DNA of 51,402 nucleotides. It comes from Sphingobacterium alimentarium (GTDB taxonomy: Bacteria; Bacteroidota; Bacteroidia; Sphingobacteriales; Sphingobacteriaceae). The stretch lies in contig NZ_SMBZ01000024.1 of the NCBI RefSeq assembly GCF_004342685.1, positions 1 through 51,402 on the forward strand, in the 5' to 3' direction. Shown one piece after another: positions 39,247 to 44,639 of this stretch. The position numbers were made by a program, and so were the translations under genes. Under the pieces are notes generated by a model. It searched no databases and was not told where the DNA came from. It saw only the letters and a list, made by a program, of their open reading frames with translations. Position 1 is the stretch's first letter. The number at the start of each line of letters is the position of its first letter.

Positions 39247-41694
39247 CTATCCCATCAAAGGATCTGAAATACTGTGTTGTCCATTTTCAATACGTCCTGC
39301 GTATTGTCTGTGCCAATTATCAGCATGTAAACTAATATCGTACCACCGACCAAATTTCTGTGTATCCATCTCCAATCGTACGGATTTCTTCGGTTTGATT
39401 GTGAGATTTTCTGTGGATTTTGTGTAGGCATTTGATACTTTGACAGCTTGCGAATTTTTCGAAATATTCTCGATATGCAACACTAAATCGCCTTTATCGG
39501 AATACGAAACCTGTACTTGCAAAGCTTCAGACAAAGCCTTTGATTGTAATTTACGGTAAAATCCATTTGGTCCATGTACCGCAACATCATAAGCTCCATT
39601 ATCTGTTTTGCGCCAAGTATAATTCAATTTGTCTCCTGCCGCTACCGCAAATGACTTGCTAAATCTATTTGTTTCGAGCAAATCATACACATTGAAAGCA
39701 CCAGCAAGAGCCCTTTGTCCAAACTTCTTGTTAGATGCTTCGAAGGTCATTTGCAAGTGATTTTTGGCATGATGCTCATGTACATACAGCTCATAGCATA
39801 AGGCGCTAGATGGCTTTGTGCCTTTCTCCTGCTTGGGTAAAGCGGGATGGGATGCTCCACTTCGGATTCGACTTATTTCATCTTCGTTGAATGCCAAATA
39901 GCCATCTGGAAGTGGCTTATCCTTCGCTTGATCTAAACTTGCTATTTGCTGCTTCATATCCAAAAAGTCGGGCAATCCACCCTTTTCATTTGGATTATAT
40001 GTTCGGAACACCGAAGTCAAATCTCCAGTTATTGCTCTTCTCCAAAGTGAAATATTCGTTTCTACAATCTGTTTCTTATATTTTTTGTTCAAGAAAACTT
40101 CCAAAAACTGGATCGTAGAGGTAATATCGCAGACTTCCGAATTCACCCATCCCCCTTTAGTCCAAGGCGATGCAATAATCAATGGCACGCGATAACCTAA
40201 TCCTACAGGACCTTCGGTTGCGTTTTCTTCTCTTACACCCGAAGCAAGTTCCTGCTCTTTCGTTAAAAATTCTGTTTGCAAACTTTCTTCCAATTTTGAC
40301 GAAACTAAACCCGAATCTTTGTCTCCCGGCTTAGGAGCCACGAATGGCGGAACATGATCGAAATAACCATCATTTTCATCATAATTCAAGATAAAAATCG
40401 TTTTCTTCCACACTTCAGGATTCTGGGTCAGAATATTCAATATTTCCGACACATACCAAGCGCCATACATCGGTGCACTCGGATGATCCGAAAAATACTG
40501 TGGCGCAACTAACCAGCTGACTGTCGGCAATTGACCATTTGTTACATCCTGACGAAATTGATGCAAAATATCACCTTTAGGTACTTCAATGGTGGCTCCT
40601 TCGAAATCTACTTTTTCTGTTTCGTGGTAATGTGTATCACCTTCGTTGGTTTGAAAAGCTCGGCTATGCAGTTCCTTCTCGAAGTCCGACAGCTTTTCAA
40701 AATTCCCTAGAGAATACTGTTCGACTTCACGCTTGAAGCTCTCCAATTGATTTTTCTTTTGCGTCAGCGTATTCTGCACCTTTTGTGCATTCGGGTAAGT
40801 AGCCAATTGCTTATGCAACTCGTCGATTTCTCCAGGCAATTCTTCAATTCTACGGGTATAAAAATCAATATGGCTTTTCTTAAAGCGGACATTGTATTGA
40901 GAAAACCATTCCAGATTATTATCCGTAAAATTCCCTAACAACGACTCCCCATTTCCAGATCCTTCATTCTGCAAACTGATTTCATTCTGGTATACCTTCC
41001 AACTTATCCCATTTTCTTGTAAACGCTCGGGGAAGGTTTTCCACTTCGCCATATTATTGTAATAGGTATCCGAATTGCGCGTCAAAGGTTTGCTATGTAG
41101 ATCTTCCGTACATTTACCCGTCCAAAAATAATGTCTGTTGGTTGTCGTACCCGTTATGGAAGAGCAAAAATGTTGATCGCAAATCGTGAAAGCATCTGCA
41201 AAAGCATAATAAAACGGAATATCTTCACGCGTATAATAGCCCAAAGTGAGCGGCAAATCACGATATTCTTTCCGTCCAGATCGCTTCCAATCCAACCACT
41301 TATCAAATTTTCCAGCGTTCCAGGCACCAATTTGATTTTCCCAAGAATGCGGTAAATCTTGTGTCCAAGCGGCTTTAGAATTTTTGATATCTAACCGAAA
41401 TGGTGCGTAGGTATGACCGTTTGCATAAGACTGCAACCATACAGGATTACCATTTGACAATTGAATAGCACATCTATCATTAAATCCGCGCACACCACGT
41501 AATGTCCCGAAAGAATGATCAAAAGAGCGGTTTTCTTGCATCAAAAGGACCACATGTTCGGCATCCAAGAATGTTGAGCCTTCAAGGGGATTAATGTTTA
41601 AAGCGGCTTCAATGGATTTTGGCAAATGCGTAAAGAGTCCAAAAGAGCCCGCCAATATTCCTGCTTTCTTGATAAATGACCTTCTATTATCCAT
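39247..41694 (-). CDS. Phosphocholine-specific phospholipase C (Tat-exported)
   Basis: This 815-residue protein starts with a twin-arginine signal (NRRSFIKKAGILAGSFGLF). The alkaline-phosphatase-like phosphoesterase domain follows (about 45-560; HVVLLMQENRSFDHSFGTLRG with metal-binding and nucleophile region, FCSSITGTTTNRHYFWTGK, ILNYDENDGYFDHVPPF). Two C-terminal beta-sandwich repeats typical of these enzymes lie at about 620-810. It hydrolyses phosphatidylcholine or sphingomyelin outside the cytoplasm. It stands alone. Sphingobacteria make sphingolipids, so a role in lipid turnover or host-lipid use is possible. Confidence 0.92.
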   Translation of the reverse strand: MDNRRSFIKKAGILAGSFGLFTHLPKSIEAALNINPLEGSTFLDAEHVVLLMQENRSFDHSFGTLRGVRGFNDRCAIQLSNGNPVWLQSYANGHTYAPFRLDIKNSKAAWTQDLPHSWENQIGAWNAGKFDKWLDWKRSGRKEYRDLPLTLGYYTREDIPFYYAFADAFTICDQHFCSSITGTTTNRHYFWTGKCTEDLHSKPLTRNSDTYYNNMAKWKTFPERLQENGISWKVYQNEISLQNEGSGNGESLLGNFTDNNLEWFSQYNVRFKKSHIDFYTRRIEELPGEIDELHKQLATYPNAQKVQNTLTQKKNQLESFKREVEQYSLGNFEKLSDFEKELHSRAFQTNEGDTHYHETEKVDFEGATIEVPKGDILHQFRQDVTNGQLPTVSWLVAPQYFSDHPSAPMYGAWYVSEILNILTQNPEVWKKTIFILNYDENDGYFDHVPPFVAPKPGDKDSGLVSSKLEESLQTEFLTKEQELASGVREENATEGPVGLGYRVPLIIASPWTKGGWVNSEVCDITSTIQFLEVFLNKKYKKQIVETNISLWRRAITGDLTSVFRTYNPNEKGGLPDFLDMKQQIASLDQAKDKPLPDGYLAFNEDEISRIRSGASHPALPKQEKGTKPSSALCYELYVHEHHAKNHLQMTFEASNKKFGQRALAGAFNVYDLLETNRFSKSFAVAAGDKLNYTWRKTDNGAYDVAVHGPNGFYRKLQSKALSEALQVQVSYSDKGDLVLHIENISKNSQAVKVSNAYTKSTENLTIKPKKSVRLEMDTQKFGRWYDISLHADNWHRQYAGRIENGQHSISDPLMG

Positions 41695-41757: not shown

Positions 41758-41793
41758 ATTTTAAAATTAAAGAGCTTCCGATGTGGAAGCTCT
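41758..41793 (-). terminator. Terminator of the TPP-riboswitch operon
   Basis: AGAGCTTCC (41771-41779) pairs with GGAAGCTCT (41785-41793) around a 5-nt loop. On the minus strand it is followed by a T-rich stretch. It lies 3 bp after the last gene of the operon. Confidence 0.8.
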
Positions 41794-41796
41794 CTA

Positions 41797-42066
41797 CTAC
41801 TCTATTAATCTAAAATTTTCAATCTGCTTCGGATGACCCAAGCGACTCAAACTTTCATAATATATTTTCTCTATTTCAGAATCCCGGAATTCGTCCGGAT
41901 TCATAATGGGAATACCCGATATAATAGGATAAAAACGTTTGCATGCTGTGCAAGTTAGGCTCCCTATGCTTATGTCTTGCTCGACCGTTTGTTCGATGAT
42001 CTCAAGTTTTAAGTCCGCTTTATCAAATGGACAACATAATTTATTTTGTATGGTACTTATTTTCAT
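41797..42066 (-). CDS. Trm112/YbaR-like zinc-ribbon protein
   Basis: This 89-residue protein has a Trm112-type zinc ribbon. A CCPFDKADL knuckle lies near residue 11-19, and a TCTACKRFYPIISGIPIM knuckle ends in the family's YPIxxGIP signature. Eukaryotic Trm112 is a small partner that stabilises several class I methyltransferases, and bacterial members often sit beside such genes. Its ATG overlaps the stop of the ThiE-like gene (ATGA). It is the last gene of the operon, whose first gene encodes a class I methyltransferase, so a partner role is plausible but unproven. Confidence 0.82.
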   Translation of the reverse strand: MKISTIQNKLCCPFDKADLKLEIIEQTVEQDISIGSLTCTACKRFYPIISGIPIMNPDEFRDSEIEKIYYESLSRLGHPKQIENFRLIE

Positions 42067-42704
42067 GGATTCTTATTTAATGCTTGGTAATATGCGTTAA
42101 TGACCTCTTTTGGATTCTCTGCGCTCATTAACCCCGAAACGATGGCAATTCCTGCATAGTTAATTTCTTCCAAAAGATTAATATGCTGTGGCTTAATGCC
42201 TCCTGCTAGAAAAAAAGGAATAGTATAATGCTGTTGAACATTTTTAATCAAAGCTCTATCTACCAATACACAGCGTGTATTATTTTCGGATGGAAACATC
42301 GAACAAAAAGATAGATAATCAATCTGTTGATCGGTTGCCCATTGTACGACATCCATATCATTGGTGCATGTCACTCCTATGATTTTGTGCTTTAATTGTG
42401 ACTTCAAAACCTCCCAATTGGAAGGGATATGATCAAAATGTACGCCATCAATGTCGTAGTCCCGCATCAATTCATACTTGTTGTTTATGAGAATGGGAAT
42501 ATGGTGCTGATGCACAATCTCAATAATAGATTCCAAAATATTGTGATTCGGCAGTTTATTCGAATCCCATAGCTGTATAGCGATCACTTGATTGGACAGT
42601 AGATGCTCCAATTTACGAAGATCTGGGGCAGTAAAGGTGCGCATGTCCAGAATGATGTATACTCCTTTTCTTTCTGTGTCGAAGTTTATTTTACGATAAG
42701 CCAT
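42063..42704 (-). CDS. ThiE/TenI-superfamily TIM-barrel protein (thiamin phosphate synthase-like)
   Basis: This 213-residue protein follows the ThiE fold strand by strand: AIQLWDSNKL (ThiE IQLRDK), PILINNKYEL (PLIIND), DGVHFDH, IGVTCTND, DYLSFCSMFPSEN, FFLAGGIKPQHI and AIVSGLMS (VVSAI). The pyrophosphate loop differs from the usual GPIFPTxTK, so it may be a divergent TMP synthase or a TenI-like enzyme. I start it at the ATG at 42704 (MAYRKINFDTERKG), which overlaps the previous gene by 14 bp; longer starts would run deeper into it. The TPP riboswitch supports a thiamin role. Confidence 0.8.
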   Translation of the reverse strand: MAYRKINFDTERKGVYIILDMRTFTAPDLRKLEHLLSNQVIAIQLWDSNKLPNHNILESIIEIVHQHHIPILINNKYELMRDYDIDGVHFDHIPSNWEVLKSQLKHKIIGVTCTNDMDVVQWATDQQIDYLSFCSMFPSENNTRCVLVDRALIKNVQQHYTIPFFLAGGIKPQHINLLEEINYAGIAIVSGLMSAENPKEVINAYYQALNKNP

Positions 42705-43734
42705 TTTCCATAGATTTAGCAAATACAGACCAATAGGCATCCTGCGCAGGCGCATTTAGCGGATACATTTCATCTCCTTTTGTGAAAAATCTCCCTTCGC
42801 TTTCGGATAAAAACATTCCAATTTCCGTACATGAAATACCTCGGCGCTGTAGTTCGTTTATTAACATTTCTTTGCCTTCCTTCTTGCAAGCAATAAGCAT
42901 GCTTCCGGCGCCAATGATACGCTGCGGGTCCAATCCAAAAATATGAGCCACATCAGCATGCACAGGAGAAACGGGAATCTTGTCTGTATCCAAACGAATG
43001 CCTTTGCGAGAAGCCGTAGCAAATTCATACACAGCCCCCATTACACCTCCCTCTGTCACATCATGCATGGCGTTAACTGTTTTGGAATCCATATGGAGTT
43101 CGCGAACTACTTGAGATTCGGGAAGAACCGAAATATTCCAAAAACTGGAAGCTGCCTCCTGTACGACTTCATCACCTAGATGAGTGCATAAGTAGTTGGG
43201 AAAAACCATGGCCAGAATGGATATCGCTGTCAATCCCGCTGTTTTTGTCATGAGCAACACATCCCCTTCTTCGGCCTGCGTAGAAGTCATGATATGCTCT
43301 ATGTCCCCTACAGCAAATAAAGTTACCCCACCTGCCAACGTCGAATTATTGTGCGCATCAAAGCTCGTATGTCCCCCAGTGATGTTGATTTTCGCCTGCG
43401 CAGCGAACTGATGAATATGCTCCCAGTATTGCTGTAGCCCCTCTTCATCCATGTACTGCGGCAAGTTTAAGGTGAATTGTCCGTACTGAGGCGCTAATCC
43501 AGATGTGGCTATATCATTCGCTGCAAGGTGCAAGGAAATATATGCCGAGGCTTTCATTCCTATCCACGGAATAATGGAAAGAGGATCGCTAGACACGACC
43601 ATTCCAATTTTTTCAGTAATAGAAATCACCGCGCAGTCCACACCATAGGCTGGACCTTGCAGAACCTTATCGCTGGCATATCCGACGGACTGTGCTAATA
43701 CACTGTCCACCAGATTCTGATTGACTTTGCTCAT
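42691..43734 (-). CDS. AIR-synthase-superfamily (PurM/ThiL/HypE) protein
   Basis: This 347-residue protein has the two-domain PurM fold. The N-terminal ATP-binding half carries YGVDCAVISI, SLHLAANDIATSGLAPQY and NITGGHTSFD. The C-terminal half has MHDVTEGGVMGAVYEFATAS, IPVSP and a LDPQRIIGAGSMLIA strand. Members include ThiL (TMP kinase), PurM and HypE. It lacks the C-terminal cysteine that HypE needs, and no hydrogenase genes are near. The TPP riboswitch points to a ThiL-like kinase or an ATP-dependent step with the ThiE-like product. It starts 2 bp after the methyltransferase stop. Confidence 0.82.
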   Translation of the reverse strand: MSKVNQNLVDSVLAQSVGYASDKVLQGPAYGVDCAVISITEKIGMVVSSDPLSIIPWIGMKASAYISLHLAANDIATSGLAPQYGQFTLNLPQYMDEEGLQQYWEHIHQFAAQAKINITGGHTSFDAHNNSTLAGGVTLFAVGDIEHIMTSTQAEEGDVLLMTKTAGLTAISILAMVFPNYLCTHLGDEVVQEAASSFWNISVLPESQVVRELHMDSKTVNAMHDVTEGGVMGAVYEFATASRKGIRLDTDKIPVSPVHADVAHIFGLDPQRIIGAGSMLIACKKEGKEMLINELQRRGISCTEIGMFLSESEGRFFTKGDEMYPLNAPAQDAYWSVFAKSMENGLS

Positions 43735-43736
43735 AG

Positions 43737-44456
43737 CTAATCCTCAAATTGTACAAATAACCCAAAGAAATCGCCGACCGGAATAGACCATTGCTGCACA
43801 GGAAACCATTTGGGCAAGCCTGTACAGGACCAATGGATAGTATAATTGCGACCAACCAGTGCTTTGTCAATGACTTGAATTAGATTTTGTGGGGTATAGA
43901 AATGGGCGGTGACATAAAAAGGATTTTTGCCAAAAGCTTGTTGAATCCTTCTTCTGAAGAATTTAGGCGAGTTGCGATTCATCATACCCATCACTATTCC
44001 GTGGCGTGATACCCGCGATGCTTCTTGAATAACGCGGACCGGATCCCGATAATATTCAAAAGTGGTAATAAACGCCACCGCATCGAAAGTTTTGTCTTTG
44101 AAGGGCATGAAATGGGAGTCTGCCATGGCTAGATCTCCAGAAAAGAGTTCTTTCGCCTGCGATAACATCAGTGGCGATATATCTCCTCCCGAGGCTTCTA
44201 TACCAATATCCTTCCACCAACGCGTAAAGCGTCCGGTGCCACATCCAAACTCCAACAACTCCTTAATCCGAGGTTCTTTGGCTACTAATTCGGCTATGAT
44301 TTTCTTTTGCCAGATCTCGGCTCTTTTGTATCGACCCTCATACCATTGCTCATAGGTATCGGTATGTTCACGGTTAAAAAACCACTCGGGTCGACCTTGC
44401 CAATTGGCTTTACGCTGAGGAATCAGCTCTTGTACATTTTGTCTTATTAACTCCAT
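43737..44456 (-). CDS. Class I SAM-dependent methyltransferase
   Basis: This 239-residue protein has a Methyltransf_11-type core: motif I ELLEFGCGTGRFTRWW, acidic post-I GGDISPLMLSQAKEL, LAMADSHFMPFKDKTFDAVAF and an ITTFEYYRDP strand. The C-terminal half (NRNSPKFFRRRIQQAFGKNP, FYTPQNLIQVIDKAL) resembles small-molecule methyltransferases. I start it at the ATG at 44456; a longer in-frame reading to 44561 would run through the riboswitch leader and is rejected. It is the first gene of the operon. Its start codon lies in a 12-bp inverted repeat of the riboswitch expression platform. The substrate is unknown. Confidence 0.88.
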   Translation of the reverse strand: MELIRQNVQELIPQRKANWQGRPEWFFNREHTDTYEQWYEGRYKRAEIWQKKIIAELVAKEPRIKELLEFGCGTGRFTRWWKDIGIEASGGDISPLMLSQAKELFSGDLAMADSHFMPFKDKTFDAVAFITTFEYYRDPVRVIQEASRVSRHGIVMGMMNRNSPKFFRRRIQQAFGKNPFYVTAHFYTPQNLIQVIDKALVGRNYTIHWSCTGLPKWFPVQQWSIPVGDFFGLFVQFED

Positions 44457-44533
44457 ACGATATATTGAATAAAAAAAATACTCCTTTCGTATGGATAAGA
44501 CCAACTGAATGGAGTACAATAAATATATCGTAT
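44452..44533 (-). promoter_or_regulatory. Riboswitch expression platform: start-codon sequestration plus terminator
   Basis: In the mRNA, AUACGAUAUAUU (44533 to 44522) directly follows the aptamer. It is perfectly complementary over 12 bp to AAUAUAUCGUAU (44466 to 44455), which includes the AU of the start codon. A second segment, UCCAUACGA (44495 to 44487), is complementary over 9 bp to UCGUAUGGA at the start codon (44460 to 44452), so the two pairings exclude each other. Between them, UACUCC (44516-44511) pairs with GGAGUA (44484-44479) and is followed by U8, a small intrinsic terminator. All of this is read directly from sequence; the switching mechanism is inferred. Confidence 0.7.
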
Positions 44534-44610
44534 CCTGCATCCCTACGTTGGCATTATCCAAATCAGGTTTCGGGTATAATCTCAGCTCTCCAAAGAGGGC
44601 ACCCCGTGCT
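44534..44610 (-). promoter_or_regulatory. TPP riboswitch (THI element) aptamer
   Basis: The minus strand shows all conserved blocks of the TPP aptamer in order: ACGGGGUGCCC, GAGCUGAGAUUAUACCC, ACCUGAUUUGGAUAAUGCC and AACGUAGGGA. These form the P2/P3 thiamin-sensing arm (GCUGAGA) and the P4/P5 pyrophosphate-sensing arm (CUGAU...GGAUAAU). The aptamer controls the downstream methyltransferase-AIRS-ThiE-Trm112 operon by binding thiamin pyrophosphate. Confidence 0.96.
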
Positions 44611-44639
44611 ATATTTTACTTATTAGCTTAAGTTTAACT

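Follow-up and report, generated by a model that had tools for sequence, protein, structure and literature searches.

A four-gene set behind a predicted TPP riboswitch in Sphingobacterium alimentarium and other Bacteroidota, probably for thiamin acquisition by non-canonical enzymes

Introduction

The closest described systems are the THI operons of Bacteroidetes, in which thiamin pyrophosphate (TPP) riboswitches (THI elements) stand before thiamin-related genes; in the excerpts of PMC5613172, thiSEGCHF-tenI, OMthi and pnuT-tnr3 are named for Bacteroides thetaiotaomicron. The present work concerns a four-gene operon in a stretch of 51,402 nucleotides from Sphingobacterium alimentarium (contig NZ_SMBZ01000024.1, positions 1 to 51,402; the whole stretch is called the window below), which encodes a methyltransferase (MT), an AIRS-like protein, a ThiE-like protein and a Trm112-like protein. 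The operon has the aptamer family in common with the THI operons of those excerpts and is not among the three named there; unlike them, it occurs mostly in genomes that lack ThiC, ThiD and ThiG, and its four proteins match none of the enzymes given there. Searches of an open-access library gave no paper recognised as dealing with the set; the comparative survey of thiamin genes of Rodionov (2002) may mention it.

The set probably serves a THI-controlled acquisition of thiamin with non-canonical enzymes, and the route would be new. The preferred reading, to which a probability of about 0.4 is given, is a TPP-repressed salvage route by which scavenged B1-related compounds would be converted into thiamin monophosphate (TMP), the latter being then converted into TPP by ThiL. 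In soils, waters and animals, vitamin B1 is often an exchange good in limiting supply; an organism that lacks ThiC, ThiD and ThiG is classed as a simple B1 auxotroph in metabolic reconstructions. The THI-controlled set is held mostly by such organisms, so a salvage reaction may be absent from the maps, and for carriers the vitamin needs and cross-feeding predicted from these could be incorrect. Genomes with ThiL or ThiN only are treated as B1 auxotrophs in the excerpts of PMC6593275. The ThiE-fold protein, encoded in one set with a methyltransferase, offers an object for experiment: one invariant Trp and two Cys have replaced its pyrophosphate site.

Results and Discussion

Operon layout and gene order

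The four genes were found tightly packed on one strand (Table 1): the MT and AIRS-like genes are separated by 2 nt; the longest open reading frame (ORF) of the ThiE-like protein starts at 42755, and the ATG at 42704 gives the product of Table 1 and a 14-nt overlap with the AIRS-like gene; the ThiE-like and Trm112-like genes share an ATGA overlap. Residue numbers of the ThiE-like protein are counted below from the longer ORF opening at 42755. The 3' hairpin (41796-41768) begins one base past the stop codon of the Trm112-like gene. This coupling and the closing terminator had been described in an initial annotation of the same DNA and were seen as described; a simple consensus terminator scan listed neither this hairpin nor that of the leader. 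None of the NCBIfam models reached its cut-off among the matches listed for the four proteins.

Table 1. Features of the operon in the window, with profile scores or folding energies.
Feature	Positions	Strand	Score or energy
MT, class I S-adenosylmethionine (SAM)-dependent methyltransferase, 239 aa	43737..44456	-	PF08241 63.7 bits
AIRS-like, PurM/ThiL/HypE/SelD superfamily, GGHT motif, 347 aa	42691..43734	-	PF00586 45.0, PF02769 60.1 bits
ThiE-like, ThiE/TenI fold, rebuilt active site, 213 aa	42063..42704	-	TMP-TENI 84.0 bits
Trm112-like small zinc protein, probable MT partner	41797..42066	-	PF03966 31.2 bits
TPP riboswitch aptamer (THI element)	44523..44616	-	RF00059 66.4 bits
Leader hairpin and eight U, predicted attenuator terminator	44470..44517	-	fold -14.3 kcal/mol
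3' terminator hairpin, 12-bp stem	41768..41796	-	-18.0 kcal/mol

Genome contigs were scanned with an alignment of AIRS-like proteins, and the best 80 of at least 579 confirmed relatives were taken as related loci. MT precedes the AIRS-like gene in 80/80 of them, and the ThiE-like and Trm112-like genes follow in the same order in 77; in the exceptions (L020, L034, L079) no more than 250 bases of contig are left beyond the AIRS gene. Median gene spacings over the loci are -1, -10 and -4 nt. The gene next to the operon varies among the loci, and ORF clustering gave, beyond the four genes, no ORF family in more than 7/80 loci; the four genes therefore form one unit. Because the order is the same in 77 loci and a riboswitch stands before 79, the arrangement is more than chance. 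Mean identities between operons (77 compared) are 76.0% (MT), 54.5% (AIRS), 51.8% (Trm112-like) and 42.9% (ThiE-like); the distance matrices of the four proteins correlate at 0.59 to 0.80, which is compatible with joint inheritance of the four genes.

For distribution, a phylum sample was used that is independent of the 80 loci (198 Bacteroidota genomes, even sampling, at least 90% complete; MT search at E 1e-40). MT was found in 7/198 genomes, the window's genome counted, i.e., sporadically, and all four genes are present in each of the other six; one operon locus of this sample (L102) may belong to the same genome as L057. Among 72,556 plasmid records no MT match was obtained at E 1e-20; in viral contigs MT gave two weak matches (28 and 36%) and the ThiE-like protein none. 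Flavobacterium akiainvivens, Runella limosa and Sphingobacterium composti are among the carriers. In Sphingobacterium sp. T2 (L008:5268-5984) MT matches piecewise in different frames, through a sequencing error or decay of the gene.

In bacimethrin clusters a thiamin antivitamin is produced under THI control, and the combination of a methyltransferase with a ThiE-like enzyme, together with the patchy distribution, might point to an antivitamin or a related secondary metabolite here as well. This is very unlikely: no conserved neighbour, for instance an exporter gene, accompanies the set, no extra ORF family exceeding the limit given above, and the constancy of MT between operons is unexpected for the gene of an antagonist.

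TPP riboswitch and leader

A well-conserved TPP aptamer at the head of the operon, as initially annotated, was confirmed with Rfam (gathering score 54.3 bits; Table 1); it is full-length and the sole match at Rfam gathering thresholds within the window. A covariance model (R1) was built on ten aptamers, nine from the related loci and that of the window itself, the latter scoring 94.0 bits with the model it helped to train. With R1 a riboswitch was found 5' of MT in 79/80 loci, nine of which trained the model and 70 of which did not; Rfam's own model found it in 9/10 loci submitted. The missing one is L083 (upstream of 3882) with both models; the four genes are present there and no riboswitch was found even at E 1. 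The six other operon loci of the phylum sample gave 6/6 (R1) and 5/6 (Rfam cut-off). A THI element thus regularly precedes the four-gene order; joint occurrence of the genes mostly without it, which the initial annotation had named as speaking against its thiamin proposal, was not encountered.

The hairpin with eight U between aptamer and MT, which the initial annotation does not mention, is a likely transcription attenuator. A hairpin directly before a U-run was present in 37/67 parsed leaders (12 of the 79 could not be parsed); shuffled leaders gave a mean of 5.8 and a maximum of 14 over 20 rounds. Because of this excess, transcription attenuation is likely to operate in many of these leaders. 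The fold of the whole 176-nt leader was not significantly better than those of shuffles (z -1.55; 16/200 shuffles equally good). Second TPP-like elements were observed near the operon in L077 (L077:12078-12171, minus strand, 38.0 bits with R1) and L045 (L045:19331-19429, plus strand, 50.4 bits with R1); on inspection by eye, no plainly thiamin-related gene was recognised behind these two.

Thiamin genes in carrier genomes

In the window's genome (3.58 Mb, 99.98% complete) the profiles of ThiC, ThiD (TIGR00097), ThiG and thiamin pyrophosphokinase (TPK, PF04263) gave no match; the remark of the initial annotation that no canonical thiamin genes are linked holds, for ThiC, ThiD and ThiG, throughout the genome. 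ThiL (TIGR01379) is present (311.8 bits), encoded away from the operon, and the single TMP-TENI protein is the ThiE-like protein of the operon. Two further THI elements (45.5 and 41.4 bits, both under the Rfam cut-off) stand before the genes of a PnuC/PnuT-type transporter and of a TonB receptor of 818 aa; the genome is seemingly dependent on uptake. A 368-aa ORF (G000:C10, L005:2841-3947) overlaps the end of this PnuC/PnuT-type gene, at a place equivalent to that of a thiamin pyrophosphokinase gene in Bacteroides; a Pfam search with it at E 1e-4 gave no match.

Fifty named operon genomes were picked from the 80 loci for spread; single absences among them may be gaps, and so many concordant ones are unlikely to be. 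ThiC was found in 6/50, ThiD above 130 bits in the same six (one of them above the curated cut-off) and ThiG above 300 bits in five of the six and in 0/44 others; the best ThiD score among the others (57.5 bits) was taken for a related kinase, and partial ThiG matches of ca. 20 to 34 bits in many genomes, some above Pfam's 23, were read as other barrel proteins. A complete canonical pathway beside the operon, which the initial annotation had named as unfavourable when combined with a lack of response to thiamin, is confined to a minority (ThiC and ThiD in 6/50; with ThiG, 5/50). One of the six (G214, L028, Gramella sp. AN32) has ThiC and, at 139 bits, a ThiD-like kinase; a genuine ThiG was not found in it. 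TPK occurs in 10/50 genomes, all ten among the 44 without ThiC; in 40/44 no TMP-TENI protein other than the ThiE-like one exceeds the cut-off (exceptions: G207, G222, G234, G236). ThiL was matched in 63/63 genomes searched, above cut-off in 62, and is in pieces in G199; in L044 (a Balneolales assembly) thiL comes next after the Trm112-like gene, at a distance of 22 bp.

In the phylum sample ThiC was found in 67/198 genomes (operon genomes, 0/7; others, 67/191; Fisher p 0.098, on its own not significant) and TPK in 96/198, including 6/6 of the other operon genomes; ThiC, TPK and the operon are all missing from 47/198 (hand count). By these profile searches, the set is held mostly, not only, by organisms apparently unable to make thiamin in the known way. 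Replacement of TPK by the operon was considered in view of the 34/44 ThiC-less carriers that lack TPK and was rejected as a full account, because of the 47 genomes just mentioned and because the six other sampled carriers have TPK.

Since 44/50 named carriers show no genuine copy of any of ThiC, ThiD and ThiG, the four proteins might be thought to replace these enzymes in a non-standard pathway that makes thiamin, or one of its halves, from start to finish. This is highly doubtful: four proteins are few for such a pathway, none is a recognisable enzyme of sulphur or C-C assembly, and Riemerella anatipestifer ATCC 11845 does not grow without vitamin B1 according to the excerpts of PMC8383284. 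The operon was seen in records of the species other than this strain, among them CCUG25054 (L009), which has TPK and no ThiC or genuine ThiD or ThiG; in this species, therefore, the operon seems not to give independence from external B1 compounds. The thiamin link of the initial annotation, which had left synthesis and salvage side by side, stands with salvage preferred over standard synthesis.

ThiE-like protein

The protein was assigned to the ThiE/TenI TIM-barrel fold and stays below both relevant models: 85.6 vs 145.1 bits (thiE equivalog TIGR00693) and 45.1 vs 251 bits (TenI, NF005819). TenI acts on the product of ThiG; ThiG was not found in 45/50 named carriers. The pyrophosphate/Mg site of ThiE, formed by QxRxK, the Asp of ND, the Asp of GQxD and the Lys of TxTK, is lost: Arg of QxRxK is replaced by Trp (Trp63) in 78/78 sequences; Lys at the positions of Lys61 and Lys159, 0/78; Asp92 (Asp of ND), 2/78; Asp of GQxD (Asp111/Asp112 position), 0/78. 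Cys151 and Cys162 are each present in 78/78, and so is Gly185-Gly186. Judged by its residues, the protein keeps the fold without those that bind pyrophosphate and is not to be read as a TMP synthase; of the earlier name "divergent ThiE", the fold is retained and the enzymatic meaning is not. A role as plain TMP synthase for salvaged hydroxymethylpyrimidine was also considered and rejected, there being no genuine ThiD in 44 carriers and no pyrophosphate site.

The rebuilt pyrimidine pocket and the two invariant cysteines suit the breaking of a bond as much as its making. They might belong to a repair or clean-up system, in which damaged or antagonistic thiamin (oxidised thiamin, an analogue of bacimethrin type) would be recognised, methyl-tagged and split, so that good thiamin is not outcompeted; the occurrence in 7/198 genomes fits an accessory function, and the window's genome, with its TonB receptor and PnuC/PnuT-type gene behind weaker THI elements, is seemingly uptake-dependent. 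Such a system is considered rather unlikely, since the linkage to a kinase and, in L044, to ThiL points to the making of TMP, and repression by TPP suits supply better than detoxification.

AIRS-like protein

Both domains of the PurM/AIRS superfamily were recognised (Table 1), and the equivalog models were missed: 70.0 vs 184.15 bits (ThiL, TIGR01379), 73.9 vs 251.6 bits (HypE, TIGR02124) and 69.9 vs 125 bits (SelD, TIGR00476). The superfamily core common with ThiL consists of Gly31, Asp33, Asp50, Asp74, GGxT, Asp225 and Gly230; the two ThiL compared have GGDT, the AIRS-like protein GGHT, with H122 in 80/80 sequences. HypE carries a functional C-terminal cysteine, whereas the last 12 residues of the AIRS-like protein contain Cys in only 2/80. 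A role as ThiL stand-in was rejected in view of the ThiL matches reported above, so that the ThiL assignment left open by the initial annotation falls, ThiL being encoded elsewhere.

Homologues of the AIRS-like protein extend to archaea, where 5 of 22 records were viewed. In 3/3 Haloarcula plasmid loci (L105, L108, L109) a 30% identical AIRS homologue lies beside thiamine-binding and thiamine ABC substrate-binding proteins. The AIR synthase family gene is divergent to these neighbours, and the thiamine-binding protein of L108 is of the MTH1187 family; the Haloarcula protein is possibly an archaeal thiamin or TMP kinase.

Methyltransferase and Trm112-like protein

MT shows the highest conservation of the four genes (111/239 columns conserved to at least 97%; 80 sequences); it was recognised as a class I SAM methyltransferase with a conserved glycine-rich motif I, LLEFGCGT. 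Its structure model is fair (pLDDT 73; residues 1-30 below 50 although partly conserved). The best fold match of the model is 1vlm, a methyltransferase of unproven function; 6f5z, the Haloferax complex of Trm112 with Hvo_0019, is found at ranks 6 and 8, and 7wtt_q (human pre-40S chain q, 18S rRNA guanine-N7 methyltransferase) ranks 30. The Trm112-like protein belongs to PF03966 (cut-off 22 bits; Table 1) and misses the cut-off of the archaeal Trm112 equivalog NF038101 (57.6 vs 77 bits); zinc ligands: C12, C39 and C42 in 78/78, C11 in 74/78; D15 is invariant among 16 sequences aligned. Because MT matches Trm112 complexes in fold and shares its operon with a Trm112-like gene, the two proteins are likely to form a holoenzyme, composed, like Haloferax Trm112-Hvo_0019 (6f5z), of a Trm112-type zinc protein and a class I methyltransferase. 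In contrast to the known Trm112 pairs, the pair of the operon is under thiamin control; we know of no thiamin pathway that includes such a methyltransferase.

Known Trm112 partners act mostly on components of translation. The solved ones matched in fold by MT comprise a putative methyltransferase from an archaeon and a ribosomal one; MT-Trm112 might modify RNA or protein, TPP being merely the signal. Such a non-thiamin product is hardly probable in view of the co-transcription with ThiE-fold and ThiL-superfamily proteins, the THI control in nearly all loci and the thiL gene behind the operon in L044.

Proposed salvage route

The salvage route to TMP may be formulated in five steps, which are inferred with support decreasing in the order given, the fifth being the weakest. 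(1) At low TPP the terminator of the leader would not form and the four genes would be transcribed. (2) MT would act as holoenzyme with the Trm112-like protein. (3) The AIRS-like protein, which shares a superfamily with ThiL, would phosphorylate thiamin or its thiazole alcohol with ATP; this kinase role is proposed because of superfamily membership and linkage. (4) Thiazole-phosphate or a TMP-like molecule would be bound by the ThiE-like protein in its Gly-Gly phosphate cup, which is retained, the pyrimidine side being formed by Trp63 and further aromatic residues, with Cys151 and Cys162 in place of Arg and Lys; cysteine catalysis would make or exchange the pyrimidine-thiazole bond without loss of pyrophosphate. 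(5) MT would methylate the leaving group of that reaction, or a group that blocks the salvaged molecule, the choice of substrate being a guess; MT-Trm112 would prepare the pyrimidine partner by methylation, the boldest part of the proposal, suggested by the conversion of a phosphate-holding pocket into an aromatic one. The methylated pyrimidine or thiazole offered as an example in the initial annotation is likewise conjectural.

A more detailed version, decidedly unlikely as a whole, would amount to a second, pyrophosphate-free joining of the B1 halves in Bacteroidota: by methylation, MT-Trm112 would turn the amine of aminomethylpyrimidine, a breakdown product, or some similar group into a cationic leaving group; this would sit in an aromatic cage (Trp63 and neighbours) in the place of ThiE's pyrophosphate; Cys151 would attack the pyrimidine as in thiaminases; thiazole phosphate from the AIRS-like kinase would replace the leaving group, and ThiL would finish TPP.

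Several findings weigh against the salvage route. ThiC and ThiD occur together in six of the 50 named carriers, and the absence of ThiG and ThiD from the other 44 is a judgement by score, weak partial matches (ThiG up to ca. 32 bits, ThiD up to 57.5 bits) having been read as other enzymes. The carriers with TPK can use thiamin without the operon because of that enzyme, and the 47 genomes of the phylum sample without ThiC, TPK and operon imply another route to TPP (seemingly an unrecognised thiamin kinase or uptake of TMP), the operon therefore being an addition and not the sole answer. ThiL adjoins the operon in 1/80 loci (L044) and was not found within the stretches of the others. The residue losses that exclude an ordinary TMP synthase leave the formation of TMP by the ThiE-like protein unproven, and Ser207 of the ThiE family is not constant among the ThiE compared. 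The Haloarcula neighbourhoods resemble each other and may go back to a single event; no thiamin neighbours were seen at the one Haloferax and the one Halobacterium locus inspected.

Neighbouring genes

On the 3' side of the operon, the window encodes an 815-aa phospholipase C-like phosphoesterase (39247-41694, minus strand; PF04185, PF05506); by eye, a similar gene also lies behind the operon in L007 and L008.

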